Source: Vallitalea sp.
GTDB taxonomy: Bacteria > Bacillota > Clostridia > Lachnospirales > Vallitaleaceae
Length of the DNA: 64,000 nt
NCBI GenBank assembly: GCA_025210515.1
Contig: JAOARM010000042.1
Coordinates: forward strand, 62,001-126,000
Direction: 5' to 3'
Each line of letters begins with the position of its first letter. Position 1 is the stretch's first letter. Both the position numbers and the translations under genes were made by a program. Under the pieces are notes generated by a model. It made no database searches and was not told the DNA's origin. It saw only the letters and a program-made list of their open reading frames with translations. Positions 6,601-41,471 of the stretch are shown here, in pieces.

Positions 6601-6670
6601 TGTATTGAAAAGCTATAAGATGCTTTTCTAATAGAGACTAGTAAAAACAAAAATGAAAGGACAAGAGAAT

Positions 6671-22007: not shown

Positions 22008-22877
22008 TTAACGCCTTCTGTAAAATGAAGGCGTTACATTATCTATTTTTTTAAAAGCACGACTAAAAGAATGAATACTTTTAAAACCAAATTGATCAGC
22101 TATTTCTGTAATAGAATAATCTGTAAACTGAATCATTTCTTTTGCTTTTTCAATTCTTATTAGTTGATGAAAATGTATAGGAGTCATACCATATGTATCT
22201 TTAAAAAGTCTTATTATATGGTATCTACTCATTGAAAACGTTCGCTCTAATTCGTCAAGAGTAATTTCTCTGTTAGAATTAATCGTAATATAATTTTTCA
22301 TTTCAAACAATATTTTCATATTAGAGGAAATATAGGTGTTAGTTTCAAAAAAAAGTTCACGAAGTAAATAGGTGAATAGATTTACAAATATTCCTTTAAT
22401 CTTTATCTCATAATAAGGTAGTTTAGCTTTGTATTCCTTAATAATCTCAAAAAGCATATTCTCGAAATATTCTGGATTTTTAAGCTTAATATAGTTGGGG
22501 ATATGAATAGATGAAGTTTTTGTTATGTCGTTTCTAAAAAGATTATAATCATGTATTGGAATATTATCTAATGTTTGAAATGATATTTTCACATCAGGGC
22601 TATTTTGTTCATAATTAAAATCAAAATGTATATGTGGTTGATGAAATATTTCTGTCCCTACTACTTCTATAGTATGTTCTTCTTTTGGTTTTAATAGAAA
22701 AATATCACCAGCACTACCTTCATAAATTGAATCCCCAACAGTAATTATCACATTCCCTTTCTTTACAAATAGTAGTTCATAATCGAAAATAACTCTTTTA
22801 ATTTTATGAGGAGGAGTTATTTTGCTATCTGAAGCAATTCTAATATATGGAGACAAGGTATTTAAGTAATTATCCAT
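22008..22877 (-). CDS. AraC family transcriptional regulator with cupin sensor domain
   Basis: 289-aa regulator. The N-terminal half is a cupin-like sugar-sensing domain (FDYELLFVKKGNVIITVGD, FLLKPKEEHTIEV). The C-terminal 100 residues are two AraC helix-turn-helix motifs (ITLDELERTFSMSRYHIIRLF and ITEIADQFGFKSIHSFSRAFK). I prefer ATG 22877, which is preceded by a GGTGAT at suitable distance; ATGs at 22898 and 22919 lack a ribosome binding site and would add 7 or 14 residues. It is divergent from the GH172 gene and shares a 200-bp regulatory region with it, so it probably controls that gene and perhaps the whole carbohydrate locus. Its last codons form one arm of the convergent terminator hairpin. 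Confidence 0.9.
   Translation of the reverse strand: MDNYLNTLSPYIRIASDSKITPPHKIKRVIFDYELLFVKKGNVIITVGDSIYEGSAGDIFLLKPKEEHTIEVVGTEIFHQPHIHFDFNYEQNSPDVKISFQTLDNIPIHDYNLFRNDITKTSSIHIPNYIKLKNPEYFENMLFEIIKEYKAKLPYYEIKIKGIFVNLFTYLLRELFFETNTYISSNMKILFEMKNYITINSNREITLDELERTFSMSRYHIIRLFKDTYGMTPIHFHQLIRIEKAKEMIQFTDYSITEIADQFGFKSIHSFSRAFKKIDNVTPSFYRRR
22009..22053 (+). terminator. Terminator hairpin between the M23 gene and araC
   Basis: A perfect 10-bp stem TAACGCCTTC (22009-22018) and GAAGGCGTTA (22027-22036) is followed on the plus strand by CATTATCTATTTTTTT. It ends the surface-protein transcript, and it overlaps the final codons and stop of the convergent araC gene. Confidence 0.75.
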
Positions 22878-22943
22878 TAGTATCACCATTTCTTTCATAT
22901 TGTTATCACATATAAGCATTATAAATCATTTACCTATTCAATG

Positions 22944-22982
22944 CAATTATTGTTAAAAAATACACTACATAAGCTAAATACA
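22944..22982 (+). promoter_or_regulatory. 39-bp shared upstream element, copy A (GH172)
   Basis: Two blocks, CAATTATTGTTAAAAAA and GCTAAATACA, are separated by 12 bp. The same blocks with the same 12-bp spacing recur at 31134-31172, upstream of the second two-component system. The layout (TTGTTA, 17 bp, GCTAAA) resembles a promoter and may be a shared promoter or operator. The AraC regulator gene adjoins this copy. Confidence 0.55.
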
Positions 22983-23080
22983 ATATCGTATGACTTTGGT
23001 ATTATTACAGTAAAGATAGTATTATTAAGTATTTGATTAATTAAGATATTTATTCAATAATTGATAAAGGAGAGAATGAA

Positions 23081-24196
23081 ATGACAAGTTTTAATGGTTT
23101 AGGAATGAATTTAGGTAATCTTTCATTATTATCAAATGCACAAACTCGTTCTATTAGTGCAGAAAATTTTACTGGTGAAAAAGGACAAGGTGGCAAAGCT
23201 ACTGAGGGTGCAGGAGCAGAGTGTGCTAGTAATCTAGGAAAAGGTTGGAAGATTTCTCCTTGTGTTGAGATTAAGCCACAAGAAGAATTTGTATTAGCTG
23301 ATATTGAAGGTATGGGAGCTATTCAAAGCATGTGGTTTGGAGGATATGTAGGTAGAGATTTTATTCTTAGAATGTATTGGGATAACCAAGAGATTCCATC
23401 TGTTGAGTGTCCATTCTCTGATTTCTTTGCATGTGGTTTTATGGATAATTCCAAAGATAATACTGATCAAAATAAAAAAATAAAATTTGCTCAATTAAAC
23501 TCTATACCTGTAACTGTAAATCCTAATAATGGGCTTAATTGTTTTTGGGAAATGCCTTTTAGAAAACGTGCAAAAATAACACTTCAAAATATAAGTGAAG
23601 AAAATAAAGTAATCTTTTATCAAATAAATTATACATTAACAGAAGTACCTGAAAATGCAGCGTATTTTCATGCACAATTTAGACTTACTAAACCAATTAA
23701 ATATATGGATGATTATACAATCATTGATGGGATAAAAGGAAAAGGACATTATGTTGGTACATCTTTACTAGTTGGTCTTAATGGAGAAGGCAAATGGTGG
23801 GGTGAAGGAGAAATCAAAATATTCATAGATGGTGATAAAGATTATCCAACTATATGTGGTACTGGTACAGAAGATTATTTCGGTGGAGCATATAATTGGG
23901 ATGTTAGAGGTGAATATGTAACTTATTCTACTCCATTTATGGGGATGCATAATGTTATAAAACCAGATGGATTATATGTATCTCAACAACAGCATGCTCT
24001 ATATAGATGGCATATTATGGATCCTATTAGATTTGAAGAAGATTTGAGAATTACTTTACAAGATTTAGGATGGAGAAACGGACAGAAATATCTACCAAGA
24101 CGAGATGATATGGCTTCTGTGGCATATTGGTATCAAACACTGCCTACTAATCCATTTCCACAATTACCAAGTAGAGAAGAAATGGAAATTATATAG
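23081..24196 (+). CDS. Glycoside hydrolase family 172 (DUF2961) protein
   Basis: 371-aa protein matching DUF2961, now family GH172, whose tested members act on fructofuranosyl or arabinofuranosyl linkages (difructose anhydride and alpha-D-arabinan/fructofuranose compounds). Signatures are SISAENFTGEKGQGGKA near the N-terminus, LADIEGMGAIQSMWF, ECPFSDFFACGF, and GTGTEDYFGGAYNW, whose glutamate lies in the family's most conserved acidic segment. No signal peptide is present, so it should act in the cytoplasm on imported oligosaccharides. AAAGGAGAG precedes the ATG. The gene is divergent from araC and is followed by its own terminator, then by an ABC uptake operon. The exact substrate cannot be read from the sequence. 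Confidence 0.92.
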   Translation: MTSFNGLGMNLGNLSLLSNAQTRSISAENFTGEKGQGGKATEGAGAECASNLGKGWKISPCVEIKPQEEFVLADIEGMGAIQSMWFGGYVGRDFILRMYWDNQEIPSVECPFSDFFACGFMDNSKDNTDQNKKIKFAQLNSIPVTVNPNNGLNCFWEMPFRKRAKITLQNISEENKVIFYQINYTLTEVPENAAYFHAQFRLTKPIKYMDDYTIIDGIKGKGHYVGTSLLVGLNGEGKWWGEGEIKIFIDGDKDYPTICGTGTEDYFGGAYNWDVRGEYVTYSTPFMGMHNVIKPDGLYVSQQQHALYRWHIMDPIRFEEDLRITLQDLGWRNGQKYLPRRDDMASVAYWYQTLPTNPFPQLPSREEMEII

Positions 24197-24243
24197 AGTA
24201 TTCTTAATAGTTTTATATATAATATGATGTATAAGCGTATAAT

Positions 24244-24286
24244 AAGTGAACTATCAATGTTTTTAAAAGATAGTTCACTTTTTTTG
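24244..24286 (+). terminator. Rho-independent terminator after the GH172 gene
   Basis: A perfect 12-bp stem AAGTGAACTATC (24244-24255) and its complement (24269-24280), followed by a run of T. Confidence 0.9.
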
Positions 24287-24348
24287 CCCTATAAGAACCT
24301 TCACACCACAAAATTACCAATTAGACCAAAAATATACCTTGTGAATTT

Positions 24349-24378
24349 TTGAAAAAAAAAGTATATTTTTATTATGCT
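24349..24378 (+). promoter_or_regulatory. Candidate promoter of the first ABC operon
   Basis: TTGAAA (24349-24354), an 18-bp spacer and TATGCT (24373-24378) lie between the GH172 terminator and the binding-protein gene. AT richness makes this moderate evidence only. Confidence 0.35.
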
Positions 24379-24415
24379 TTAGAAAAAGGTAGTAATAAAT
24401 TTAAGGAGGAAGATT

Positions 24416-25717
24416 ATGAAAAAAATTCAAGGTGTAGCAATTTTATTATCAATGTTATTATTAGTTTTTAGTATTACAGGATGTGGTTCAAAAACTAATA
24501 CAGACCAAAAAGTGTCTGATAACTCAGAGGTTGCACAAAAAAAAGATGAGAATAAAAAAATTAAATTAAAAGTAATGATTTTATCAGAAGACTCAAACAG
24601 ACAAGCAATTTACAAAGATTATTATTCAAAAAATATTAAAGAAGCTTTCCCAAATTATGAAGTTGAATTTGAACTTCCAGGAAGTGCTGATGCATATAGT
24701 AGTAAATTAAGAATTTACAATGCTTCTGGAGAACTTCCAGATGTATTTTGGGGACAAGATATTGTATATCAATCAGGTAATGCTCTTGATTTAACAGATA
24801 TTATTAAAGAAGATGGGTATTTAGATAAATTTAGTAATCCGGCAGCATTAATTCCAGCTAAAGATGGAAAAATATATTGCCTAAATAGTGGAACCGATTC
24901 ATTCTTTGCAGGACCATTATATTTCAATAAGGATATATTTGAAAAAGAAGGTTTAAAGACGCCAACTAGTTTTAATGAATTAGTTTCTGTTTCAAAGAAA
25001 TTAGCAGAAAAAGGATATACTCCAATTTCAGTAACTGCATGGGCTATTCAAAACTTCTTATTTGCTGATTTAGTTACTATGGATGATCATACTAACATTA
25101 TAAAATTACAAAATGGAGAAATTGATTTTAATAACGAAGTAATCGTAGAAGCTGCTAATAAGTTAAAAACATTAGTAGACATTGGAGCTTTTCCAAAAAA
25201 TGTTACTTCTATTGAGCATCAAGTGCATGTAGATATGTTTAATAAAGGTGAAGCTGCAATGCTGTATCATCCAATTTGGGTACTTCCTGCTGTATCTAAA
25301 GATATTAATTTAGGATATACATATTTACCAGAATTCAGTGGGGCAAAAGCTATTAACTGCTGGGGTTCATCTACAACTGGTGGATTTATGGTATCAAAAA
25401 AATCTAAAAATACAGAAGCTGCTGTAAAAGTAGCTGAATGGTTAACAACTCAAGATGCAGAGTTCTTTAATAAAGTAGCAGGTAACGCAGTAGCATTAAA
25501 AGGATATTCAATCTCTGAAGATTCACATTCAATTGTAAAAGATACTTACAATAAAATGATTGATGAAGAAACAGTTAAAATTCCTAACTTACCTACAAAC
25601 TATATGGCAGAAGCAGTAATAGCAGAATATGGAACAAACATTGAAAAATTAATATTTAATCAATTAACTCCAGAGCAATTCTGTAATATAATGAATGACC
25701 TATATAAGAATCAATAA
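24416..25717 (+). CDS. ABC sugar transporter substrate-binding lipoprotein (set 1)
   Basis: 433-aa extracellular solute-binding protein, family 1 (MalE-like), for an oligosaccharide importer. The signal peptide ends in lipobox ITGC with C23, giving a lipid-anchored protein on the outer face of the membrane. Typical marks are the ELPDVFWGQD segment, the GPLYFNKDIFEKEGLKTPTS block near residue 165-185, and STTGGFMVSKKSKNTEAAVKVAEWL in the second lobe. AAGGAGG precedes the ATG. It heads an operon with two permease genes; a hairpin in the gap to the first permease may raise its relative mRNA level. The adjacent GH172 enzyme suggests a furanosyl oligosaccharide as ligand (inference). Confidence 0.92.
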   Translation: MKKIQGVAILLSMLLLVFSITGCGSKTNTDQKVSDNSEVAQKKDENKKIKLKVMILSEDSNRQAIYKDYYSKNIKEAFPNYEVEFELPGSADAYSSKLRIYNASGELPDVFWGQDIVYQSGNALDLTDIIKEDGYLDKFSNPAALIPAKDGKIYCLNSGTDSFFAGPLYFNKDIFEKEGLKTPTSFNELVSVSKKLAEKGYTPISVTAWAIQNFLFADLVTMDDHTNIIKLQNGEIDFNNEVIVEAANKLKTLVDIGAFPKNVTSIEHQVHVDMFNKGEAAMLYHPIWVLPAVSKDINLGYTYLPEFSGAKAINCWGSSTTGGFMVSKKSKNTEAAVKVAEWLTTQDAEFFNKVAGNAVALKGYSISEDSHSIVKDTYNKMIDEETVKIPNLPTNYMAEAVIAEYGTNIEKLIFNQLTPEQFCNIMNDLYKNQ

Positions 25718-25748
25718 AATATTTATTTAACTAGAATGATTTTGTTAT

Positions 25749-25784
25749 TTAAGCACAATTGCCATTACATGGTATTGTGCTTTA
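25749..25784 (+). other. Intercistronic hairpin between binding-protein and permease genes
   Basis: TTAAGCACAAT pairs with ATTGTGCTTTA across 25749-25784, with an inner TGCCA/TGGTA stem. No T run follows. Such hairpins commonly stabilise the upstream mRNA end or attenuate transcription so the binding protein is made in excess. The second ABC operon carries hairpins in the same place. Confidence 0.6.
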
Positions 25785-25807
25785 ATAAATCACAAGGAGG
25801 CAAAGTG

Positions 25808-26695
25808 ATGAATTCCACGAAAAGAAATAGAACTTTAATCATTACATTTATATTACCTGCAATTTTAATATTTTCACTGTTTATAATTTATCCTTTGGTT
25901 ACAACAGTATATAAAAGTGGTTTTGTATTTAATGGATTTAAACTAGGTAAATTTGTAGGATTTAAAAATTACATTGATACACTAAAAGACCCAGTTTTTT
26001 GGCATGTAAATACAAATACACTAAAATTATTAGCAGTTCAGTTATTATTAGCAGGACCTCTATCTTTTTTGCTTGCGGTTGTTGTTAATACGCAAGGACC
26101 TAAGTTTAGAAAATATTTTAAAATTGCAGTATTCTTACCTGCAGTGTTAAATGTTGCTGTTATATCACTTATGTGGAAGATGATGTTACAACCTGATTGG
26201 GGTACAGTTGATGTTATATTAACAAAGCTTGGACTTCAAGATCATATTATTTTATGGTTATCTGATAAAACATTTGCAATTTGGATAATAGGATTTGTAG
26301 TTCTTTGGCAATATATTGGATTTAATATGTTATTCTTCTATGCTGGAGTTCGCTCTATTCCAACTTCATATTTTGAAGCTGCTACAGTAGAAGGTGCAGG
26401 TTTTTGGAGAAAAACATTACACATATCTATACCACTTTGTCAAGAGATAATTAAATTTGTTCTGATTATTTCCATAACAGGAACAATGCAGATATTTACT
26501 CAAATTCAATTATTAACAAATGGTGGACCTGGAGATCTTACAAGATCATTAGTTTTCCAAATGTACTATAAAGCATTCTCTATTTCTAACTTTGCACAGG
26601 CTAATTCGATTGCTGTTTTATTTGCAATTGAGACTTTTACATTCGTACTAATTGTTAATAGATTTATAGCAAGAGATAGAATTCAGTATACATAA
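25808..26695 (+). CDS. ABC sugar transporter permease (set 1, MalF/UgpA type)
   Basis: 295-aa inner-membrane permease with six predicted segments. The cytoplasmic EAA loop is YFEAATVEGAGFWRKTLHIS followed by IPL, which contacts the ATPase. ATG 25808 has AAGGAGG 7 nt before it; the upstream in-frame ATGs from 25736 lie across the intercistronic hairpin and have no ribosome binding site. It pairs with the next gene, 15 nt downstream, to form the channel for the substrate bound by the preceding lipoprotein. No ATPase gene follows, so an MsmX/MsmK-like shared ATPase coded elsewhere is expected (family knowledge). Confidence 0.92.
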   Translation: MNSTKRNRTLIITFILPAILIFSLFIIYPLVTTVYKSGFVFNGFKLGKFVGFKNYIDTLKDPVFWHVNTNTLKLLAVQLLLAGPLSFLLAVVVNTQGPKFRKYFKIAVFLPAVLNVAVISLMWKMMLQPDWGTVDVILTKLGLQDHIILWLSDKTFAIWIIGFVVLWQYIGFNMLFFYAGVRSIPTSYFEAATVEGAGFWRKTLHISIPLCQEIIKFVLIISITGTMQIFTQIQLLTNGGPGDLTRSLVFQMYYKAFSISNFAQANSIAVLFAIETFTFVLIVNRFIARDRIQYT

Positions 26696-26710
26696 AAGGG
26701 GGAGGACATA

Positions 26711-27538
26711 GTGAAAAAAAATAAATCAGATATAATAGTTAAAATCTTACTTATAGCATTTGCTTTAACAGCAATTTATCCAATCATATGGATGATTATT
26801 AATTCATTAAAAACAGCTGAACAAGTAATCTCTGATCCAATTGGATTACCACAAGTATTTAGATTCGCAAATTATAAAGAAGCAGTACAGGCATTTGACT
26901 TTTTTAGATATTTATTAAATAGTTCAATTTATACGATTGGAACAATTCTTATTACAGTAATTTGTGCAAGCTTATTTGCTTATGCTACTGCTAGAATTGA
27001 TTTTAAGCAAAGTGATCTTATTATGAAATATCTTCAATTCGGTCTTGTTGTACCTATGTCAATTATAATTTTATCGCTATATATTCTTTTGGGTGATATA
27101 CACTTGAAAAATACATATATAGGAACAATTTTAGTATATACCGCAAGTGCTTTACCAATGAGTATATTAATACTTTATGCATTTATGAGATCACTACCAT
27201 TTGAATTAGAAGAAGCAGCGTATATTGATGGATGTTCTCCATTTAAAGCGTTTTATAAAATAATACTTCCTATGGTTAAGTCAGCACTTAGTACAGTTGT
27301 TATCATATGTTTTATGAATTATTCTTGGAATGAGTACTTTACAGCTTTTATAACTATTGATGATGTAAAAATGAGATCAATACCAGTTGCTATAGGTTAT
27401 TTCAGTACTAGTAGAGGTACGGAATGGGGATTATTATGTGCATGTCTAGTTATAACAAGTATTCCAGCAATTATATTGTATTTATTTGGAAGTGAGAAGA
27501 TAGAACAAGCATTAACAGTAGGTTCAGCAATGAAATAA
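26711..27538 (+). CDS. ABC sugar transporter permease (set 1, MalG/UgpE type)
   Basis: 275-aa membrane permease of the carbohydrate family. The N-terminus has TAIYPIIWMIINSLKTAEQV, typical of MalG-like subunits, and the EAA loop is PFELEEAAYIDGCSPFKAFY followed by KIILPM. It starts with GTG 26711, preceded by GGGGGAGG. It forms a heterodimeric channel with the permease just upstream. No terminator is seen in the 64 nt before the sensor kinase gene, so the two-component genes may be on the same transcript. Confidence 0.92.
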   Translation: MKKNKSDIIVKILLIAFALTAIYPIIWMIINSLKTAEQVISDPIGLPQVFRFANYKEAVQAFDFFRYLLNSSIYTIGTILITVICASLFAYATARIDFKQSDLIMKYLQFGLVVPMSIIILSLYILLGDIHLKNTYIGTILVYTASALPMSILILYAFMRSLPFELEEAAYIDGCSPFKAFYKIILPMVKSALSTVVIICFMNYSWNEYFTAFITIDDVKMRSIPVAIGYFSTSRGTEWGLLCACLVITSIPAIILYLFGSEKIEQALTVGSAMK

Positions 27539-27602
27539 TTACCCTTGACCAAGTCATCATCATTATTTATTATAGTAATTAATAAAATACTACAATGTTA
27601 TC

Positions 27603-29369
27603 ATGGGGGTAATGAGTTTGAGGAGAAAGATTTTTTGGGTTAATACTATAATAATGATTATATCATTAATGATATTAAGTTTTTTTTGGAATAATGTAGC
27701 ACTTAACTTGAACATTGAAAATGCAAAGAAAAATACAGTTAGAGAATTAGCATTAATCAATAATAGTTTAGATTTATTTATTGAAACGGTTAATGATTAT
27801 GCTATTAATATATCCATTGATAATAGAATACAAAATGCTCTGAATGAGTATTCATATAAAGAGCCAACTATGAATTTTTATAAAATAAATAGGGATATAG
27901 TTACAGCCACAATGGAAGTATTGGGATTGAGTAATAATATTGTTGGTTGTGATATAGTTGCAACTGACGATATTATTTTTCATGTTAGTGAATTTTTTGA
28001 CGAAGAAATTGAAAAGTTAATAAAAACTCATGAGAGAGAATTGCATAATCAAGTAGAATGGTCTAATATAGTACAAATGCGTCATATGAGTGGATATGAT
28101 AAAAATATTTTTGTTATACAAAAAAGAATCATTGATCTATCTACATATAAGTTATTAGGAGTAGAGTATATGTATGTAGATGAACGAGATATAGCAAAAA
28201 TATATTTGAACAATATTAAAAATGATGAAAATGAGTTTTACATATTGAATAATAAAAATGTTATTGTATCATCTTCTGAAAATAATAGTATCAATAAATC
28301 TTTTATTAATTATCAAGGCTTAAATAAACAAGAACTTAATAAACTTATAGAAAATAAAAATGGAGTAATTAAAGTTAATAAAGAATCATATTTTTCTTCC
28401 ATTCAAAAAGTAGATAGTCTTGATTGGACTGTTATAAGTATGATACCGATTAAAGAATTAAAATCACAAACAAAATTATTTGATGCATTTATATTAATTA
28501 TAGGAATTATTTATTTGATTGTAGGGGTAATTGTATCGGTACTTGTATCTTATTCAATTTCGAAACCTATTAATAAGTTAGTTTTGACTATGAACAAGAT
28601 AAATTCAGGAAATAGAGAAGTACGAGCTGATACAAATAATACTAAAGAGCTACAAGTATTAAGCACAACGTTTAATAGGCTAATGGACAAGAATGAAAAT
28701 TTAATATTGCAATTAATTGAGGAAGAAAAAGCAATAAGAAATTATGAATTTATGTTGCTTCAAGCACAAATAAAGCCTCATTTTTTATATAATACTTTAG
28801 AAACTATTTCTTCATTTGTAAAATTAAATATGCAGCAAGAGGCATTAAATTCAATTCATTGTTTGGCAAATTTCTGTAGAATTTCCTTGAGCAATGGGAA
28901 AGATATTATTACAATAAGAGAAGAACTTAAGTTAGTTGAAAGCTATCTAACTATTCAAAAATATAGAAATATCAAATATTTAGATTTCGAAATTGATTTT
29001 AATGAAAATATATTAGACAATAAAATTCCAAAGTTTACTTTACAACCAATTATAGAAAATTCTATTTATCATGGTATGAAACCAAAAAGAGAAAAAACAA
29101 AAGTACAAATCAAAGGAAGATGTAAAGACGGTTTTATTATTATTACAGTAAAAGATAATGGGATTGGAATACCTGAATATGATGTAGAGAGAATTAATAG
29201 ACAATTTTATGATGAATTTAATAAAGATAGCTTCGGACTTCATAGCGTTAACTCAAGAATAAAAATATATTATGGAGATAATTTTGGTATTAATATTGAA
29301 AGTAAATATTTAGATTATACTATAGTATCTATTAAATTACCAAATGAAAGGAGTAGTAATAATGCTTAA
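27603..29369 (+). CDS. YesM-type sensor histidine kinase (system 1)
   Basis: Up to 588 aa. The N-terminal membrane segment is residues about 8-30; an extracellular sensor region (about 31-295, Cache-like by position) follows; the second membrane segment is about 297-320; then a HAMP domain (SKPINKLVLTMNKI) and a LytS/YehU-type kinase core. The histidine box is QIKPHFLYNTLETI with H393; the ATP-binding domain has PIIENSIYHG and VKDNGIGIP. The start is uncertain: ATG 27603 has no ribosome binding site, while TTG 27618 is well spaced from GGGGGT. It overlaps its regulator gene by 8 nt. Kinases of this type usually sense a sugar-bound binding protein and control neighbouring transport operons. 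Confidence 0.9.
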   Translation: MGVMSLRRKIFWVNTIIMIISLMILSFFWNNVALNLNIENAKKNTVRELALINNSLDLFIETVNDYAINISIDNRIQNALNEYSYKEPTMNFYKINRDIVTATMEVLGLSNNIVGCDIVATDDIIFHVSEFFDEEIEKLIKTHERELHNQVEWSNIVQMRHMSGYDKNIFVIQKRIIDLSTYKLLGVEYMYVDERDIAKIYLNNIKNDENEFYILNNKNVIVSSSENNSINKSFINYQGLNKQELNKLIENKNGVIKVNKESYFSSIQKVDSLDWTVISMIPIKELKSQTKLFDAFILIIGIIYLIVGVIVSVLVSYSISKPINKLVLTMNKINSGNREVRADTNNTKELQVLSTTFNRLMDKNENLILQLIEEEKAIRNYEFMLLQAQIKPHFLYNTLETISSFVKLNMQQEALNSIHCLANFCRISLSNGKDIITIREELKLVESYLTIQKYRNIKYLDFEIDFNENILDNKIPKFTLQPIIENSIYHGMKPKREKTKVQIKGRCKDGFIIITVKDNGIGIPEYDVERINRQFYDEFNKDSFGLHSVNSRIKIYYGDNFGINIESKYLDYTIVSIKLPNERSSNNA

Positions 29370-30972: not shown

Positions 30973-31308
30973 TATGCCTTACTACAACATGTATAAAGTA
31001 ATATTTACAAAATTATATTAATCTATATAGTATAATATAAATATAAAAATAGGAACAAAATATTATAATTCTATTTTTGATATATATTATATTTATATAG
31101 ATTTTTTTAAAAATAAAAGTTGTTGTTAACAATCAATTATTGTTAAAAAAAATACTATTATTGCTAAATACATAGGGATTATTATTTTATATGATAAAAT
31201 ATGAATACAGTAAATAAAATATATTATTCATTTTTCTTGGGATTAAATTAGATTGAAATAATATTATTTACCATGTATTATAAATTCATACTAGAATAGG
31301 GGGATAAT
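30973..31308. other. 336-bp intergenic region between the two two-component systems
   Basis: Extremely AT-rich region with no ORF of note and no clear terminator. It contains copy B of the 39-bp shared element (31134-31172) and a TACAGTAAA (31206-31214) that also follows copy A (23006-23014), 10 bp closer there. Confidence 0.6.
31134..31172 (+). promoter_or_regulatory. 39-bp shared upstream element, copy B (two-component system 2)
   Basis: Identical blocks CAATTATTGTTAAAAAA and GCTAAATACA with the same 12-bp separation as copy A at 22944-22982. The spacer itself is only partly alike. Fixed spacing argues for a protein- or polymerase-binding site. Confidence 0.55.
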
Positions 31309-34633: not shown

Positions 34634-34640
34634 AAAATTA

Positions 34641-34660
34641 TATATAAAATTAAGAACTAG
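34641..34660 (+). promoter_or_regulatory. 20-bp shared element, copy C (beta-helix gene)
   Basis: TATATAAAATTAAGAACTAG matches 38193-38212, upstream of the second binding-protein gene, in 19 of 20 positions. A GTAAGTAATAAT also follows each copy, at a different distance (34701 and 38220). Both are low-complexity AT sequences, so this is suggestive only. Confidence 0.35.
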
Positions 34661-34784
34661 TTATATAGTAAAATATGGAAAAATATGAGTTAATTGAAAA
34701 GTAAGTAATAATTAGAAAGGAGCGAAGGTATTATATTTTTTGGGGATCTAACATATTTAAACCATATTTAGGAGGAAATAAATT

Positions 34785-37700
34785 ATGAAGAAGAAACCTT
34801 GCAACAAAATTTTTTCAGTTATAATATTTTTTTCCATTTTAGCTAGTTTATTAAATTATGGAGATGTTTTCTCGGTTAATGTTGAAGCAGCGGGGACGGT
34901 GTATTATGTTGCGACAACTGGTAATGATAACACAGGAGATGGATCATTAAATAATCCGTGGAAAACAGTCCAGAAGGCTGCAAGTATAATGACTGCTGGA
35001 GACACATGTGAAATACGTGGAGGAACTTATAGAGAAACAGTTATTCCAGCAAATAGTGGTACAAGTGGTGCTCCAATTAAGTTTAGAGCTTATAATGGAG
35101 AAGATGTAACAATTAGTGGAGCTGATGCTGTAACTGGTTGGACTCAGCACAGTGGCAATATATATAAAGCACCATTAGCACAAGATACACATGCAGTATT
35201 TGTTGATAAAACAGATATGATTGAAGCTAGATGGCCTAATAAAACTAATCTTGATAAATTGAATCGTCATGATTTAGGAGTTGCAGATGGAGGTTCGGTA
35301 ACTACTCTTGTAGATGCTGCACTACATGGTGGAGATGATTACTGGAATGGTGCATTTGTATGGTTTACTGGTGGAGGAAGCCATATAAATTGGTCAGCAC
35401 AGACATCTTATGTAACAGATTATGATTCATCATCAAAAAAACTTACTATCCAAAAACCACAAAATGAATATTGGCATAGAGTACCAGCAAAGGGTTCACT
35501 CTTCTATCTAACTGGTAAACTCAGTGAACTTGATATGGAAAATGAATGGCACTACGAAAATGGTTATCTATATTTGTGGGCACCAGGCGGTGTTGACCCT
35601 AGTACAAAAACTGTAGAGGTTAAAAGAAGAAAATGGGCATTTAATTTAGAAAATAAAAACTACATAGAAATAAGTGATATTAAGGTTTTTGCAGGATCAG
35701 CTAATCTTGAAAACTCAACATACTGTGTAATAGATAACTGTGAGTTCAAATATGTAGCTTCTGACCCATGGATTAATTATACTTATAGTAGAGGTGGTTA
35801 CGGAGATCATGTAAATATTGCTCCTTGGTGGGATAGTACTTGGAATGATGTAGGTGTATATATAGGCGGAAGCAATAACGTATTAAAAAATAGTAAAGTA
35901 GAGTATAGTTATGGAGATTGTGTAACAGTTGTTGGAGATAATAATACTGTTAAGAATAATATTTTACATGATGCAAATATTAGTGCTACAGAATGTGGCG
36001 TAGTAACTGTAAAAGGATTAGATCATGAGATTCTTTGTAATACAATGTATAATGCAGGACGTTCTATATTACAATTTAATTATGTGGAACGTAGTAGATT
36101 TCTATATAATAATATGTATGAACCAGGAAAATTAACAAAAGACCTTGGAGTTGCTTATTGTTACATTAGTGATGGTAAAGGTACAGAAATAGCATATAAT
36201 TGGGTACATGATAATCACGCTGGGGGAGCAGGTTCAGGTATATATCTAGATAATGGTTCAAGTAATTTCATTCTACATCATAATGTTATATGGAATTGTC
36301 CAACTATGGAGGGTATAGTATATAATGTTCCTTCTGATAACATGCAAACATATAACAATACGATATATGATACAGGTGGTAGCAAAGCAATAAGAATGGG
36401 GGACCATCATACACGTGCTACAACATATAATAACTTATCACATAAAAACCTAGAAGGAGATGATATGCAAAATAACCTTACAATATCAGATCCAAAATTT
36501 GTTAATACAGGAGATGGAGGACTTAAATACAGATTAAGTTCAAGTTCACCAGCTATAGATGGTGGTAGAGTTATACAAGGTATCACAAATAGTTATGTAG
36601 GTTCTGCACCTGATATAGGAGCTTATGAATATGGTGGAACTGATTGGATTGCAGGTCATACAGCAATTGCACCACAAAAACCAGTAAAAGAACCATTAGC
36701 ACCATCAGAAATGAAAAATGATGCAGAAGAGGGAATTAATTTTTCAGCTGGATGGAATTATTATCCAGCATATTATGATTATCCTCATCTGAAAAATTGT
36801 TATAAAGCAGATGTTCACGCTTCATATAATCCAGGAGAATATGTAGAGTATACATTTACAGGTAACAAAATAACTTGGATAGGTGGAAAAAATGTAGATC
36901 ATGGTAAAGTTGATGTATATATAGATGGTCAACTAGATGCAGTAGTAGATACTTATGGTCCATCATTTGTATTACAACAAGAGCTTTATACAAAATCAGG
37001 TTTAAGTGATGGTGAGCATACGATAAAAATAGTATTACGTGATGATAAGAATCCTGCTTCAACAGGATATTGTACAGATGTGGATGCATTCAAGCTATAT
37101 CCAAAAACTACTGTAGTAAATGTTAAAGATGATAATAACAATATTGCAGAGACAGGTTCTGGAAGAACATTAATATGTAAAGCAGATCATTTTAATAATG
37201 CATTAACAGTAATGACAGATGGAATATTAGATAATAGTGCAGATAGCTGGAATAACCAACTAAAGACAGAAGATTATTGGGGAATTTCATTTGATAAGCT
37301 ATATGGATTTAATAAAGTAGTATTTACAAGTGGTGTAATAGCTGTAGATGGAGGATGGTTTGGTAGTGGACTAAAAGTACAAGTGAGACAATCTGGTAAA
37401 TGGGTAGATGTAACAGGATTAAATATATCACCAGCATATCCATATAATAATTCAGCAGTGCCAAATAAAAGTTATACAATGACATTTGATGATACGTGGG
37501 GAGATGCAATAAGAGTACATGGAGTCCCTGCCACAGTATCAGGATATAATTTCTCATTCACTACTATAGGAGAATTTGAGGCATATTATATGAAGTCAGC
37601 ACCAGCACCTAGTATAGTTAACCAAAAAGATGATAACAATAACATAGCAAGAACAGGTTCTGGAAGAACATTAATATGTAAAGCAGATCAGTTCAATAAT

Positions 37701-38099
37701 GCATTAACAGTAATGACAGATGGAATATTAGATAATAGTGCAGATAGTTGGAACAATAAACTTAAAACAGAAGATTATTGGGGAATTTCATTTGATAAGC
37801 TATATGGATTTAATAAAGTAGTATTTACAAGTGGTGTAATGGCTGTAGATGGAGGATGGTTTGGTAGTGGACTAAAAGTACAAGTGAGACAATCTGATCA
37901 ATGGGTAGATGTAGCAGGATTAAATATATCACCAGCATATCCGTATAACAATACATCAGTACCAAATAAAAGTTATACAATGACATTTGACGATACTTGG
38001 GGAGATGCAATTAGAGTATATGGAGTCCCTGCTCAAGTATCAGGATATAATTTCTCATTCACTACTATAGGTGAGTTTGAGGCATATTATACAAACTAA
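34785..38099 (+). CDS. Secreted right-handed beta-helix protein with carbohydrate-binding-like modules
   Basis: 1104-aa exported protein. A signal peptide ends near VEA/AG (35). Residues about 40-630 are a parallel beta-helix region: YYVATTGNDNTGDGS, a PGDT-like AGDTCEIRGGTYRETV block, EARWPN, then many N-rich rungs (SNNVLKNSKVEYSYG, IYLDNGSSNFILHHNVIWN). Such folds occur in polysaccharide lyases and some glycoside hydrolases. Residues about 645-770 form a galactose-binding-like module (GEYVEYTFTGNKITWIGG). Two nearly identical discoidin-like modules with a 167-aa period end the protein. AGGAGG precedes the ATG. It lies between two-component system 2 and the second ABC operon and probably releases their oligosaccharide from a polymer; the catalytic residues and substrate are not known. 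Confidence 0.87.
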   Translation: MKKKPCNKIFSVIIFFSILASLLNYGDVFSVNVEAAGTVYYVATTGNDNTGDGSLNNPWKTVQKAASIMTAGDTCEIRGGTYRETVIPANSGTSGAPIKFRAYNGEDVTISGADAVTGWTQHSGNIYKAPLAQDTHAVFVDKTDMIEARWPNKTNLDKLNRHDLGVADGGSVTTLVDAALHGGDDYWNGAFVWFTGGGSHINWSAQTSYVTDYDSSSKKLTIQKPQNEYWHRVPAKGSLFYLTGKLSELDMENEWHYENGYLYLWAPGGVDPSTKTVEVKRRKWAFNLENKNYIEISDIKVFAGSANLENSTYCVIDNCEFKYVASDPWINYTYSRGGYGDHVNIAPWWDSTWNDVGVYIGGSNNVLKNSKVEYSYGDCVTVVGDNNTVKNNILHDANISATECGVVTVKGLDHEILCNTMYNAGRSILQFNYVERSRFLYNNMYEPGKLTKDLGVAYCYISDGKGTEIAYNWVHDNHAGGAGSGIYLDNGSSNFILHHNVIWNCPTMEGIVYNVPSDNMQTYNNTIYDTGGSKAIRMGDHHTRATTYNNLSHKNLEGDDMQNNLTISDPKFVNTGDGGLKYRLSSSSPAIDGGRVIQGITNSYVGSAPDIGAYEYGGTDWIAGHTAIAPQKPVKEPLAPSEMKNDAEEGINFSAGWNYYPAYYDYPHLKNCYKADVHASYNPGEYVEYTFTGNKITWIGGKNVDHGKVDVYIDGQLDAVVDTYGPSFVLQQELYTKSGLSDGEHTIKIVLRDDKNPASTGYCTDVDAFKLYPKTTVVNVKDDNNNIAETGSGRTLICKADHFNNALTVMTDGILDNSADSWNNQLKTEDYWGISFDKLYGFNKVVFTSGVIAVDGGWFGSGLKVQVRQSGKWVDVTGLNISPAYPYNNSAVPNKSYTMTFDDTWGDAIRVHGVPATVSGYNFSFTTIGEFEAYYMKSAPAPSIVNQKDDNNNIARTGSGRTLICKADQFNNALTVMTDGILDNSADSWNNKLKTEDYWGISFDKLYGFNKVVFTSGVMAVDGGWFGSGLKVQVRQSDQWVDVAGLNISPAYPYNNTSVPNKSYTMTFDDTWGDAIRVYGVPAQVSGYNFSFTTIGEFEAYYTN
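37128..38096 (+). repeat. Tandem duplicated C-terminal module in the beta-helix gene
   Basis: Two in-frame units begin at 37128 and 37629 (501-bp period). Long stretches of DNA are identical between units, for example the blocks encoding SGRTLICKAD, VMTDGILDNSADSWNN, EDYWGISFDKLYGFNKVVF and GGWFGSGLKVQVRQS. The low divergence points to a recent duplication or ongoing gene conversion. Confidence 0.9.
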
Positions 38100-38125
38100 A
38101 AATAATATTTAATTAATACCAAAAT

Positions 38126-38176
38126 ATTAATCCACAAAAAACATAGACAATTAAGAGTTGTTTTTTGTGGATTAAT
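38126..38176 (+). terminator. Strong hairpin after the beta-helix gene
   Basis: ATTAATCCACAAAAAACA (38126-38143) is perfectly complementary to 38159-38176, with a 15-nt loop. The T tract lies inside the stem's right arm and is not after it, so termination is likely but not classical. Confidence 0.6.
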
Positions 38177-38192
38177 TATATATAGAATTTAG

Positions 38193-38212
38193 TATATAAA
38201 ATTAAGAATTAG
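38193..38212 (+). promoter_or_regulatory. 20-bp shared element, copy D (second ABC operon)
   Basis: TATATAAAATTAAGAATTAG, 19 of 20 identical to copy C at 34641-34660. It lies 91 bp before the binding-protein ATG. Confidence 0.35.
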
Positions 38213-38303
38213 CAATATTGTAAGTAATAATAAATGTAGTTATAATGAAATAGTAAAAGAAATAGTAATTGCATAAGCTATTTCAACTAAAGGAGGATAT
38301 AAG

Positions 38304-39623
38304 ATGAAAAAAACGATTAGTATATTAATGTCTATTATGTTAGTAGTAGCTTTATTTACTGCATGTGGGGGAGAAAAAAAAGTTGATAATAATCAACAAG
38401 AAACTAGTAATAATGAAAGTAAGCCTAATGATACAGAAAAGCCTAAAGAGAAAGTAAAATTAGTATTTGCTACAAATGAGACACCAATACTTACAAAAGA
38501 ATTTTGGCAAATTCCATCCGATAAATTTATGAAAGAAAACCCAAATGTAACTATTGAAAATATTGCACAACCATCATCTAATATACCAATGAGAGATTAT
38601 TTGAAAACATTACTAGCAACTGGAGAATTTCCAGATATTATGGTAATGAGTTCTCCTATGGATTTTGTTTCAGCTGATGCATTACTTGAATTTAGTGAAG
38701 ATGATCTAAGTCATGTAGTTGATCCAACAGTAGGAAGAATAGACGGAAAGAATTATATAGTACCTTACAAAAAAATGGTAGGTGGTATATGGTATAATAA
38801 AAGAATTTTTGAAGAAAAAGGTTTAAGTGAACCAAAAACTTATGATGAATTTTTAGAACTTTGTAAAACATTAAAAGATGACAAAGTTACTCCTATATCA
38901 ATGGGATTAAAAGATGGATGGCCTCAATTAGTATTTGCTTCTTGTTTCTTATCAGCAGATTTACTAACAGAAAATCCAAACTGGGGTATTGATAGAAATG
39001 AAGGAAAAACTACATTTTCTTCTGATGAATTCAAGAAACCAATAAGTAAGTATGCAGAATTAGTAAGAAATTATGCAAATGAAGATATGGCAAGTGTAAG
39101 TTATGCTCAAATGCTTGAACTTTTCTTTACAGAAAAAGCTGCTATGTTACCAATGGGTTCATGGTTACTTGGAGAAGAGCAAAGAGTTAAACCAGATTTT
39201 GAAGTAGGATTTTTCCCAGTTCCAGGAGATGATAACGCTGATGCAGTAGCTGTTTGGGTTAATGAAGGTTTAGCAATTAATTCAAAAACAAAGCATGTTG
39301 AAGAAGCAAAAGCATTTGTTAAGTTCTTTATGACAGAAAAAGAATGGTACGGAGAATTTTTAAAAACAGAAATGTTATTCCCAAATACGAAAGAAGATGT
39401 ACCTTATGAAATGAGTCCTCTAAGAAAAGAAATTGGAGATAAAATGGGAAGCTTAAAAGAAGTTGAACATTGGTATGATATGACTGGTGATGCAGCATTA
39501 TTACCAGGTCTACAAACTTATTTTAATAAGATGACTCAAAATATAGCATTAGGTGCAGATATTGATGAAGAATTAAAGTTATTTGATCAAGAATGGCAAA
39601 TGGCAAAAGATAATATTCAATAG
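38304..39623 (+). CDS. ABC sugar transporter substrate-binding lipoprotein (set 2)
   Basis: 439-aa family 1 extracellular solute-binding protein. The signal peptide ends in a lipobox with C21 (LFTAC). An Asn/Glu/Lys-rich linker follows. The lobes contain GEFPDIMVMSSPMDF, GGIWYNKRIFEEKGLSEPKT and AAMLPMGSWLLGEEQ, which are usual in oligosaccharide-binding proteins. AAAGGAGG precedes the ATG. It is distinct in sequence from the set 1 protein, suggesting a different ligand or chain length. Upstream is the beta-helix gene, and shared element D lies in its promoter region. Two hairpins separate it from the first permease gene. Confidence 0.93.
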   Translation: MKKTISILMSIMLVVALFTACGGEKKVDNNQQETSNNESKPNDTEKPKEKVKLVFATNETPILTKEFWQIPSDKFMKENPNVTIENIAQPSSNIPMRDYLKTLLATGEFPDIMVMSSPMDFVSADALLEFSEDDLSHVVDPTVGRIDGKNYIVPYKKMVGGIWYNKRIFEEKGLSEPKTYDEFLELCKTLKDDKVTPISMGLKDGWPQLVFASCFLSADLLTENPNWGIDRNEGKTTFSSDEFKKPISKYAELVRNYANEDMASVSYAQMLELFFTEKAAMLPMGSWLLGEEQRVKPDFEVGFFPVPGDDNADAVAVWVNEGLAINSKTKHVEEAKAFVKFFMTEKEWYGEFLKTEMLFPNTKEDVPYEMSPLRKEIGDKMGSLKEVEHWYDMTGDAALLPGLQTYFNKMTQNIALGADIDEELKLFDQEWQMAKDNIQ

Positions 39624-39647
39624 AATCAATATAGTTTTAAGATAGTA

Positions 39648-39684
39648 TTTAGAGAGGTAAATAAGAAATTATTTCCTCTCTAAA
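39648..39684 (+). other. Intercistronic hairpin 1 of the second ABC operon
   Basis: TTTAGAGAGG-T-AAATAA pairs with TTATTTCCTCTCTAAA with a single bulged T and a 4-nt loop (39648-39684). An A run follows, so it is not a plus-strand terminator; a 3'-end stabiliser for the binding-protein mRNA is the likely role. Confidence 0.6.
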
Positions 39685-39690
39685 AAAAAT

Positions 39691-39756
39691 AACCAATTGC
39701 AAAATCATGTTTGTGATAAAGCATTAAATTTGAATGAATTAATTTTGCAATTGGTT
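39691..39756 (+). other. Intercistronic hairpin 2 of the second ABC operon
   Basis: AACCAATTGCAAAAT (39691-39705) is perfectly complementary to 39742-39756, enclosing 36 nt. It lies 27 nt before the permease start and may influence its translation or mRNA processing. Confidence 0.55.
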
Positions 39757-39783
39757 ATAAATAAATATGAAGAGGTGAAATAT

Positions 39784-40641
39784 ATGAAGAAAAAAAGAGT
39801 AAGTGATTTAGTATTTGTGTCTCCAGGATTATTAATATATATTGTCTTTATGGTTGTGCCTATTTTGCTAACATTTTATTATAGCTTTACTAATTGGAAT
39901 GGTATTAGTAGTACATATAAATTTATTGGATTTAAAAATTTCACACATTTATTTAAGGATAGAAGTTTTATAGAAGCTATTAAAACTACTCTAATAATAA
40001 CTTTAACTACAGCATTTTTTCTTAATGTATTAGCAATAATTATGGCTGTTTTATTAGATGGAGTTGGAAAAATATTTAAGATAGGAAAAGCTGGTATTTT
40101 TCTTCCTGCAATTCTAAGTAGTGTAGTAGTTTCATTTTTATGGTCTTATATGACCCAAACTAATGGTGGTATAATAAATTATTTTTTCAGTATTTTTAAT
40201 ATCCCTGCTTTTGATTTCTATAGAACGGCTATGAGAACTACTCACTTAGTATCTGGAGTTATTGTTTGGGGGGCGCTAGGTTTCTATACAACTGTTTATG
40301 ATGCTACACTGAAAACTATTCCAGAGGAATTATATGAAGCAGGACGTGTAGACGGAGCAAGTGCTTTACAAAGATTTTTTAGAATAACAATACCTCTATT
40401 AACACCTGGTATAACGATAAATAGTATCCTTGCAGTAACATGGGGATTAAAACAATATGACTTTGTTAAAATTATGACTCCAGGAAGTATACAAACAATT
40501 GCAGTTAATGCAGTTGAAAGAGCATTTGATTATAATCGACTAGCTTATGCATCTGCTATTGTCCTAATACTATTTTTTGCAATGGCTATCATTTCTTTCA
40601 TACAAATATATTTAGTTAAGAAAGTTGAGGTGGAATATTAA
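39784..40641 (+). CDS. ABC sugar transporter permease (set 2, MalF/UgpA type)
   Basis: 285-aa membrane permease. The first membrane segment begins LVFVSPGLLIYIVFMVVPIL, followed by TFYYSFTNWNG, a common block in this family; the EAA loop is PEELYEAGRVDGASALQRFF followed by RITIPL. ATG 39784 is preceded by AGAGGTG; in-frame ATG 39697 lies inside the hairpin region and has no ribosome binding site. It pairs with the next gene, 2 nt downstream. No ATPase gene is present in this operon either. Confidence 0.93.
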   Translation: MKKKRVSDLVFVSPGLLIYIVFMVVPILLTFYYSFTNWNGISSTYKFIGFKNFTHLFKDRSFIEAIKTTLIITLTTAFFLNVLAIIMAVLLDGVGKIFKIGKAGIFLPAILSSVVVSFLWSYMTQTNGGIINYFFSIFNIPAFDFYRTAMRTTHLVSGVIVWGALGFYTTVYDATLKTIPEELYEAGRVDGASALQRFFRITIPLLTPGITINSILAVTWGLKQYDFVKIMTPGSIQTIAVNAVERAFDYNRLAYASAIVLILFFAMAIISFIQIYLVKKVEVEY

Positions 40642-40643
40642 CT

Positions 40644-41471
40644 ATGAATAAGACAAAGAGAATGGATATTATTAGAAAGTTATTTATTGTAGTATTCATT
40701 ATTATCTATTTAGTTCCATTATATGTTGCACTAGTTAATGCTTTTAAGTCTTATGAAGATATTGTTAAAAGTCCATTAAGCTTACCAAGAGCTTTTAATT
40801 TAGATAACTTTAGATTAGCCTTTGAGAGAACTAATGTATTACAACTTTATTCTAACAGTATAATAATTACATTAGGTTCCCTTGCTATTTTAATTATAAC
40901 TTCTGCTATGTTAGCATATGTTATTGCAAGAAGAAACAAAAAAATATATAAATTTTTATTCTTATTTATTTTAGCTGGAATGATGGTACCTCAGCAAATG
41001 GTACTCATACCAAGTATTAAGACATTAAAAGTATTAGGATTATTACATTCACTACCAGGAATGCTCCTTTTCTATGGTGGAACATATATGAGTTTAGGAT
41101 TTTTCCTATATGTTCAATTTATTAAGACAATTCCTATTAGCTTAGAAGAAGCTGCTACAATAGATGGAGCAAGCCAATATAGAATATTTTTTAAGATAAT
41201 ATTTCCATTGTTAAAACCATGTACTGCTACTGTATCTATTTTCCTCGGAATGTGGATTTGGAACGATTTCCTACCACCTATGTATATTTTAGGTTCTAAT
41301 AATGGAAGAACAATTACTACTGGTATATATAGTGCTATTGGAAGATTTACTACAGATTGGAATATTGTATTCGCATTTGTAATATTAGCTTCATTACCTA
41401 TTATAATAACATATTTATTAATGCAAAAACAGTTTATGAGAGGACTTACAGCAGGTTCTGTTAAAGGTTGA
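40644..41471 (+). CDS. ABC sugar transporter permease (set 2, MalG/UgpE type)
   Basis: 275-aa membrane permease with the MalG-like N-terminus LVPLYVALVNAFKSYEDIVK, an internal GMMVPQQMVLIP segment, and the EAA loop PISLEEAATIDGASQYRIFF followed by KIIFPL. The ATG follows the previous stop by 2 nt with GAGGTGG in the end of the upstream gene, which indicates translational coupling. It is the last gene of the second ABC operon; a terminator lies 33 nt downstream. Confidence 0.93.
   Translation: MNKTKRMDIIRKLFIVVFIIIYLVPLYVALVNAFKSYEDIVKSPLSLPRAFNLDNFRLAFERTNVLQLYSNSIIITLGSLAILIITSAMLAYVIARRNKKIYKFLFLFILAGMMVPQQMVLIPSIKTLKVLGLLHSLPGMLLFYGGTYMSLGFFLYVQFIKTIPISLEEAATIDGASQYRIFFKIIFPLLKPCTATVSIFLGMWIWNDFLPPMYILGSNNGRTITTGIYSAIGRFTTDWNIVFAFVILASLPIIITYLLMQKQFMRGLTAGSVKG

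Follow-up and report, generated by a model that had tools for sequence, protein, structure and literature searches.

The locus at positions 22,008–41,471 of the window (the whole 64,000-nucleotide stretch of Vallitalea sp. DNA analysed here) combines a GH172 enzyme with a secreted beta-helix protein, two transporter sets and three regulatory systems. Its core is unbroken in a congener, the catalytic residues of GH172 are retained, and promoters within the locus share long sequence motifs. Taken as a whole, the interpretation as a Gram-positive glycan-use locus with this shared core, acting on a D-arabinofuranoside and wired as proposed below, seems to us somewhat better than an even bet. All 13 genes are uninterrupted open reading frames at the positions given by an earlier sequence-only reading, with labels backed by Pfam:

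22008..22919, minus strand: AraC-type regulator, divergent from GH172 (Pfam HTH_18 2e-21, AraC_binding 4e-7)
22944..22982, plus strand: proposed AraC operator 1, GH172 promoter, CAATTATTGTTAAAAAA-N12-GCTAAATACA
23081..24196, plus strand: GH172 (DUF2961), ExoMA1-like (Pfam 2.3e-88)
24244..24280, plus strand: terminator-like hairpin with a T run behind it, 3' of GH172 (fold -14.4 kcal/mol, z -6.1)
24416..25717, plus strand: SBP1, solute-binding protein of set 1 (SBP_bac_1 4e-29; lipoprotein-like N-terminus by eye)
25736..26695, plus strand: PermA1, permease of set 1 (BPD_transp_1 8e-11)
26711..27538, plus strand: PermB1, permease of set 1 (BPD_transp_1 2e-14)
27603..29369, plus strand: HK1, YesM-type sensor kinase of set 1 (Pfam His_kinase, HATPase_c, HAMP)
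29344..30972, plus strand: RR1, YesN-type response regulator of set 1 (Pfam Response_reg, HTH_AraC)
31134..31172, plus strand: proposed AraC operator 2, HK2-RR2 promoter, specified bases the same as in operator 1
31309..33099, plus strand: HK2, YesM-type sensor kinase (Pfam; dCache match below cut-off)
33065..34633, plus strand: RR2, YesN-type response regulator (Pfam)
34647..34671, plus strand: proposed RR2 operator upstream of the beta-helix gene, AAATTAAGAAYTAGYWATATWGTRA (0 mismatches)
34785..38099, plus strand: secreted multimodular beta-helix protein, 1104 aa
38126..38176, plus strand: long hairpin 3' of the beta-helix gene, stem without a T run behind it (fold -20.5 kcal/mol, z -6.3)
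38199..38223, plus strand: proposed RR2 operator upstream of SBP2 (0 mismatches; conserved before SBP2 in the congener)
38304..39623, plus strand: SBP2, solute-binding protein of set 2 (SBP_bac_1 1.5e-35; lipoprotein-like N-terminus by eye)
39697..40641, plus strand: PermA2, permease of set 2 (Pfam)
40644..41471, plus strand: PermB2, permease of set 2 (Pfam)

Open reading frames and Pfam agree with the earlier description of a carbohydrate locus containing an AraC regulator, GH172, two SBP-permease-permease sets without an ATPase (24416-27538 and 38304-41471) and two YesM/YesN systems (27603-30972 and 31309-34633). No ABC ATPase was found by Pfam among the 13 genes. A UgpC-type ATPase is encoded elsewhere (G000:C17:175678; 513 bits against a curated cut-off of 432), beside which no permease gene was seen in the open reading frame list by eye; the missing ATPase is therefore ordinary for this transporter class. 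Both hairpins were folded individually, their loops (> 8) being above the limit of the terminator listing in the sigma-70 scan. That scan gave 168 sites against 157 expected, and its result was set aside.

In the congener (G001), AraC, GH172, HK2, RR2, SBP2, PermA2 and PermB2 follow one another without a break (identities of 67, 82, 57, 65, 75, 82, and 82%, respectively), and the window has in addition the SBP1-PermA1-PermB1-HK1-RR1 set and the beta-helix gene; neither a beta-helix core nor a close SBP1 was found in G001. AraC relatives divergent from GH172 also occur at loci L128 (in G035; 44%) and L069 (47%). The gene order was sought in other genomes, as the sequence-only reading had suggested, and in full it was seen in none of those examined. 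That reading had divided the locus into halves at 31 kb, whose separate occurrence in relatives would have counted against it. This is borne out in part: set 1 relatives do occur separately, as described below, but the remainder is not split there, since in the congener GH172 accompanies the genes of the second half.

GH172 is probably an intracellular exo-alpha-D-arabinofuranosidase, as predicted from its alignment to solved structures. Its PF11175 domain (296 bits against a cut-off of 27) bears out the assignment to a furanosidase family, and the closest PDB structure is 8ic8 (E 6.9e-114, versus 2.3e-40 for 7v1v), that of ExoMA1, an intracellular exo-alpha-D-arabinofuranosidase. Glu242, Glu264, and Asp265 match the catalytic Glu pair of alphaFFase1 (E270 and E291) and its D292, and are kept in 81/81 matches of >50% identity (loci L041-L120). 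Tyr271 replaces the Trp of ExoMA1 and alphaFFase1, and Tyr is the commonest residue at this position in the wider GH172 sample (67/81). Asn272 occupies the position of Gly299 in alphaFFase1; according to the report on ExoMA1, its Asn253 excludes fructofuranose and the enzyme is devoid of a signal sequence (PMC10509167). The N-terminus of the locus enzyme likewise shows no hydrophobic stretch by eye, in keeping with the cytoplasmic location proposed earlier. No GH32 match was obtained in a search of the own genome (control positive in 4/14 genomes). Of the two sugars originally considered, fructofuranose loses ground on account of Asn272 and the absence of GH32, and alpha-D-arabinofuranose is the better guess. 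At least 588 related stretches were confirmed as GH172 relatives, the best 80 coming from records of many phyla.

Shared promoter sequences suggest how the locus is wired. At up to 3 mismatches, the 39-nt AraC-type site occurs twice in the own genome (G000), upstream of GH172 and of HK2-RR2, once in G001, at the promoter orthologous to that of GH172 (none being found there upstream of HK2), and in none of five further genomes searched; the reversed pattern, used as a control, gave no match in all 7 genomes. Diverged copies (21/27 positions) are present at the AraC-GH172 pairs L128 and L069. Among 84 GH172 upstream regions, 82 were scored, two being too short, and in just three of the 82 an AraC match lies no more than 2.5 kb away; these three take the highest ranks. 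The first two reach 21/27, equalled by none of 200 single-base shuffles, and the third scores 19, equalled by 4 of 200. The patterns were derived from the very sites they match, so that exact matches involve some circularity; what is independent of this is that the sites are rare elsewhere and that copies exist at L128 and L069. The AraC-site footprint offers a cheap handle for finding the remaining AraC-GH172 regulon. The exact 25-nt site was found, across the 7 genomes, only twice in the locus and once before SBP2 of G001; the matches at 3 mismatches (two in G000 and one in G004) and the one match of the reversed control (in G002) are about chance level. The pairing of AraC and RR2 with their putative sites is drawn from position. 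Since the 25-nt site precedes both the beta-helix gene and SBP2, the beta-helix protein would be tied to the GH172 core, with set 1 left outside.

Relatives of all five set 1 genes are contiguous in a genome of another family (G022; order HK-RR-SBP-PermA-PermB), where they adjoin a Melibiase-family gene and the genome gives no GH172 match. Sets 1 and 2 are mutually 25–29% identical, and the PDB relatives of SBP1 (26 listed) and SBP2 (42 listed) are many different sugar-binding proteins indicating no one ligand. The earlier suggestion of two related ligands draws no support from this divergence or from the Melibiase-family neighbour. A beta-helix paralogue of the own genome, on contig C15, adjoins permeases nearest to those of set 1 (34%) and a kinase nearest to HK1, and a sulfatase and a GHL6 protein also stand beside it. 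Together with the G022 arrangement and the lack of both parts in G001, this would fit two unrelated interleaved systems, set 1 and the beta-helix protein serving a fucosylated or sulfated glycan and AraC-GH172-set 2 another. We consider such an arrangement rather unlikely, because the beta-helix gene lies between RR2 and SBP2 and has the 25-nt site in common with the latter, whereas the upstream regions of the beta-helix gene and SBP1 have just 10 AT-rich nt in common.

The beta-helix protein has a hydrophobic, signal-peptide-like N-terminus (by eye), a core at about residues 37-640 whose homologues are beta-helix proteins, and a tail (residues 641-1104) in which all Pfam matches fall below their cut-offs. 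A secreted beta-helix protein with three probable binding modules had been proposed; the signal-peptide-like N-terminus and one stretch resembling CE2_N (24.8 bits, cut-off 27.9; E 2.4e-5; residues 682-756) lend support to this, and the other two modules correspond to tandem repeats (residues 779-935 and 946-1102; 157 aa each, 90% identical, 418/448 bases identical in the DNA). The first repeat gave no PDB sequence match at E<=1; given this and the sub-cut-off Pfam matches in the tail, we only infer that the repeats are binding modules.

The core appears related to GH120 and GH141, with a GH141-like Asp pair. Its profile gave 12 matches among solved chains at E<=5, GH120 being the best, and two of the three best are glycosidases, of GH120 and GH141. 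Asp453 and Asp489 are invariant across 9 aligned cores, three of them near-identical, and a similar motif occurs in a GH141_M-bearing protein of G004. A weak HMM alignment to 5mqp (whole-profile E 1.8e-12), covering the insertion region, places other residues at the catalytic Asp positions. The GH120 nucleophile is Asp (D382) and the acid/base Glu (E405); in a weak local alignment with residues counted by hand, the former falls on Asp489, whereas the latter meets an Asn, itself invariant. GH141_M matches 7 of the 9 aligned cores (best 0.00099), the window core giving no match at E<=5, and membership of GH141 is not established by these comparisons. A core model built from the single sequence reached a pLDDT of 29.7, and one that also drew on 9 distant relatives, taken from viral contigs, only 54.6 (pTM 0.58). 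With this low-confidence model, Foldseek ranked GH120 first and GH141 next, and VIA-align gave GH141 a Z of 30.8, the other 49 among the matches listed having 23.1-29.7; these fold matches are read as indicating a beta-helix and nothing further.

The fold alone does not fix the chemistry, and pectate, rhamnogalacturonan and alginate lyases, alginate epimerases and an adhesin also have high fold Z. That the protein is a lyase, epimerase or adhesin, the locus merely scavenging oligosaccharides, is nevertheless improbable in view of the glycosidases among the best profile matches and the invariant Asp pair at GH141-like spacing. GH91 is also a beta-helix family, and its structure 9j4l appears at rank 24 (E 2e-3) in the Foldseek search with the low-confidence model, as might be expected of an alpha-fructofuranoside locus (difructose anhydride or fructan) in which the beta-helix protein makes or cuts fructan and GH172 opens the product. 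The founding GH172 member, described as a difructose dianhydride I synthase/hydrolase (PMC8605356), would also suit it. We regard this alternative as very doubtful: GH91 is missing from the 12 profile matches at E<=5, the locus GH172 is nearer to ExoMA1 than to alphaFFase1 and has an Asn in place of Gly at the selecting residue, and the genome yielded no GH32.

At E<=1e-20, the core was found in 10/392 genomes of the order, the own genome included, and in 1/398 of the phylum sample, which is the own genome. In a single further genus, three genomes encode relatives of 47–48% identity; these are 767-aa proteins that adjoin unrelated regulators (4.7 kb around each). Genes in the neighbourhood of related cores encode sulfatases, GHL6, GH95, and a DUF5703/GH95-like enzyme. 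The combination had not been recognised as a described locus, and among the papers searched none names GH172 and GH141 together; the beta-helix profile matched none of 1,101 open reading frames (>=100 aa; E<=0.01) from 88 GH172 loci, many of them short. Another GH172 locus, L132 (G035:C3), encodes a protein of 2069 aa in which Beta_helix, PKD, and F5/8 domains occur; it was considered as a second GH172–beta-helix pair and rejected, giving no match to the profile at that threshold.

In the D-arabinofuranoside interpretation that we prefer, the core (AraC, GH172, HK2-RR2, and SBP2-PermA2-PermB2) would take up an oligosaccharide and split off its ends in the cytoplasm, these being alpha-D-arabinofuranosyl or, less likely, alpha-D-fructofuranosyl. 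AraC would sense an intracellular sugar and bind the sites before GH172 and, in the own genome, HK2-RR2; HK2 would sense an external ligand, with RR2 binding the 25-nt sites before the beta-helix gene and SBP2-PermA2-PermB2. The secreted, GH141-like beta-helix enzyme, its tail probably carbohydrate-binding, may cut the polymer outside, set 2 importing the pieces with the power of the UgpC-type ATPase and GH172 trimming them. Freed D-arabinose could enter metabolism via a FucI-type isomerase encoded at another place in the genome, though such enzymes accept L-fucose in addition to D-arabinose. Set 1 would regulate itself and take up a second sugar, which may be unrelated to the first. Against a D-arabinan, the sulfatase, GHL6, GH95, and DUF5703/GH95-like neighbours of related cores point to sulfated or fucosylated glycans, and no further D-arabinan enzyme was seen, although the GH183 search (0/26 genomes, including the own) is of low weight, its control being positive in 0/14. 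It is a long shot that the beta-helix protein is endo-acting on a D-arabinofuranose polymer, operator-wired to an ExoMA1-type GH172 and of a fold unlike GH183; if true, it would offer a GH183-independent route for D-arabinan use.

Several known systems resemble the locus in part. The D-arabinan locus of Microbacterium arabinogalactanolyticum, as reported, also has a GH172 without a signal sequence, a secreted depolymerase (here the beta-helix candidate), an SBP-dependent ABC transporter and a proposed intracellular trimming (PMC10509167). Unlike it, the present locus has an AraC regulator, two YesM/YesN pairs and two transporters, and its sole secreted enzyme candidate is the beta-helix protein, neither a GH183 endo-D-arabinanase nor a GH116 exo-beta-D-arabinofuranosidase being found by Pfam among the 13 genes. 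GH172 itself is of the ExoMA1 type in its catalytic Glu pair, following Asp and Asn selector, and departs from both ExoMA1 and alphaFFase1 at Tyr271. GH141 is reported to include BT1002, Xyn141E, and Wf141 endo-fucanases, with a catalytic Asp pair (D523 and D564 in BT1002) at published spacings of 41 and 37 (PMC12786026, PMC5593877). The core resembles it in that its profile aligns with BT1002 across the insertion and in an Asp pair 36 apart, and differs in giving no GH141_M match at E<=5 and in having GH120 as its best profile match. YesM/YesN-controlled sugar uptake sets of Bacillota consist of HK-RR-SBP-permease-permease without an ATPase gene, as do the sets here, except that two dissimilar ones are interleaved around a GH172 core. 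The locus is new in combination, not in kind: for the most part it rearranges known components. Its promoter-linked GH172, one secreted enzyme and one transporter provide a testable handle on the diet of this clade.

Each of the 13 genes that the sequence-only reading had placed at 22008–41471 was recovered as an ORF at those coordinates, carrying the expected domains. Upstream of the locus lie two giant ORFs and one M23-like ORF, described here by their Pfam matches:

window 6653–13249, giant ORF 1, 2198 aa, with a single Ig-like match below the cut-off
window 13296–20978, giant ORF 2, 2560 aa, with SLH domains at its end (E 3e-26)
window 20998–21990, 330 aa, encoded immediately after the SLH protein; its M23 peptidase match lies below the cut-off

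Neither giant ORF matched a further Pfam family at E ≤ 0.001. The 3′ side of the locus holds two ORFs, neither with a family match above the cut-off, beyond which come genes of apparent housekeeping function (UVR-motif, ATP:guanido phosphotransferase, Clp ATPase, and RadA-like).

In the congeneric genome G001, the genes for AraC, GH172, HK2, RR2, SBP2, PermA2, and PermB2 adjoin one another (57–82% identity to the window), with neither set 1 (SBP1-PermA1-PermB1-HK1-RR1, 24416–30972) nor the beta-helix gene interposed. The best match of SBP1 in G001 is the SBP2 orthologue (E 8.8e-21), and the sole match of the beta-helix protein falls on a tail module; set 1 and the beta-helix gene are likely, not certainly, missing from the rest of G001 too, because its completeness is ~94%. 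In G022, a genome of another family, relatives of all five set 1 genes lie together (32–43% identity; order, HK-RR-SBP-PermA-PermB) with a Melibiase-family gene after them, and GH172 has no match in that genome. The division of the locus at 31 kb, as drawn earlier, is therefore wrong: GH172 groups with the second half, and the separable unit is set 1. The difference between the window and G001 may alike reflect gain in the former or loss in the latter.

Comparison of intergenic regions revealed the sequence CAATTATTGTTAAAAAA-N12-GCTAAATACA on the 5′ side of GH172 in both the window and G001, and of HK2 in the window. Judged by eye, the half-sites of this sequence form a direct repeat with 21 nt spacing, an arrangement frequent among AraC-family sites. 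When up to three mismatches are allowed, the own genome has two copies, both within the locus, and G001 has one; five further genomes searched have none, and the reversed-control pattern is absent from all seven. We scored it over 82 upstream regions of GH172 genes (84 tried, 2 too short) against 200 single-base shuffles. An AraC match lies within 2.5 kb at only three of the 82 loci, which take site-score ranks 1–3: L069 and L128 match at 21 of 27 positions with an identical 12-nt gap (0/200 shuffles as good), and L049 at 19 of 27 (4/200). L069, from a Clostridia MAG, retains the site in a divergent AraC-GH172 pair, with no transporter or kinase match in the fetched 11 kb.

A second sequence, AAATTAAGAAYTAGYWATATWGTRA, lies 5′ of the beta-helix gene and of SBP2 in the window, and 5′ of SBP2 in G001. 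These are its only exact matches in seven genomes, where the chance level amounts to three matches with 3 mismatches and one reversed-control match. The region upstream of SBP1 shares with other upstream regions only AT-rich matches of 10–12 nt, none within CAATTATTGTTAAAAAA-N12-GCTAAATACA or AAATTAAGAAYTAGYWATATWGTRA. The strong hairpin 3′ of GH172 (z −6.1) is followed by a T run and suggests that its transcript terminates after GH172 itself; the hairpin 3′ of the beta-helix gene is also strong (z −6.3) and has no T run. Judging from these promoter sequences, AraC would bind at and control GH172 and HK2-RR2, RR2 would do so at the beta-helix gene and set 2 (SBP2-PermA2-PermB2, 38304–41471), and set 1 would stand outside this wiring.

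The GH172 protein (371 aa) matches PDB entry 8ic8 at E 6.9e-114, as against 2.3e-40 for the difructose anhydride enzyme 7v1v. The former is ExoMA1, an exo-alpha-D-arabinofuranosidase described as having no signal sequence, in which Asn253 occupies the position of alphaFFase1 Gly299 and excludes fructofuranose (PMC10509167). Alignment to the PDB matches places Asn272 of the window protein at this position, and its catalytic residues at E242, E264, and D265. Among 81 GH172 matches of >50% identity, taken from the best 80 of at least 588 related stretches (L041–L120), the catalytic Glu pair and Asp are conserved in all 81, and position 272 is N in 63, D in 14, G in 2, S in 1, and C in 1. Given its Asp and Gly variants, this widespread clade may comprise more than one specificity. 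GH32 has no match in the own genome, which encodes one FucI-type isomerase and, 6.9 kb beyond it, a class II aldolase. Together these results favour alpha-D-arabinofuranose as the substrate sugar, although FucI-type enzymes also accept L-fucose.

Nine beta-helix cores, that of the window and three near-identical ones among them, were combined into a profile, whose PDB matches include GH120 XylC (E 2.7e-31), the parallel beta-helix repeat protein 9rx2 (5.7e-26), GH141 BT1002 (1.8e-12), and pectate lyase Pel9A (4e-11). Seven of the nine cores match Pfam GH141_M at E ≤ 5, the window core not being among them. Asp453 and Asp489 are invariant in all nine (three near-identical), with similar surroundings in a GH141_M-bearing protein of another genome, G004; the pair is spaced by 36 in the window and 40 in G004 by manual count, and the spacings described for GH141 are 41 in BT1002 and 37 in Xyn141E (PMC12786026, PMC5593877). 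Since the profile alignment to BT1002 is weak in this region and places other residues there, we regard the protein as probably GH141-like and withhold GH141 membership. Its two tandem 157-aa repeats (window 37119–38090) are 90% identical in protein and share 418/448 bases, and so probably arose by recent duplication or conversion; the first has no PDB sequence match at E ≤ 1.

The strongest counter-argument to a D-arabinan polymer comes from the neighbours of related beta-helix cores: sulfatases in genome G002 and on contig C15 of the own genome, a GH95 gene in G004, a DUF5703/GH95-like gene in G002, and a GHL6 protein on C15, which suggest fucosylated or sulfated glycans. The 35-kb contig C15 (L124, L182), with a beta-helix paralogue (36–37%), two sulfatases, the GHL6 protein, two SBP-permease-permease sets, and two YesM/YesN-like pairs, itself looks like a sulfated-glycan locus.

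The beta-helix core was found in 10 of 392 sampled genomes of the order and, in a phylum sample of 398, in the own genome only; across 88 fetched GH172 loci, many <20 kb, its profile had no match at E ≤ 0.01 among 1,101 ORFs. Genome G035 has three GH172 places; the two examined, L132 (contig C3) and L128 (C6), each contain a GH65 gene, and L132 encodes a 2069-aa protein with beta-helix, PKD, and F5/8 domains, without a match to the window profile. Our literature searches found no paper pairing 'GH172' with 'GH141', or 'exo-alpha-d-arabinofuranosidase' with 'beta-helix', and the gene order of the window was absent from all other genomes examined. The firm elements are the core shared with G001, the likeness of the GH172 to ExoMA1, and the promoter sequences found at more than one gene; the polymer is not among them. 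The locus is of a familiar Gram-positive kind in an unfamiliar combination.
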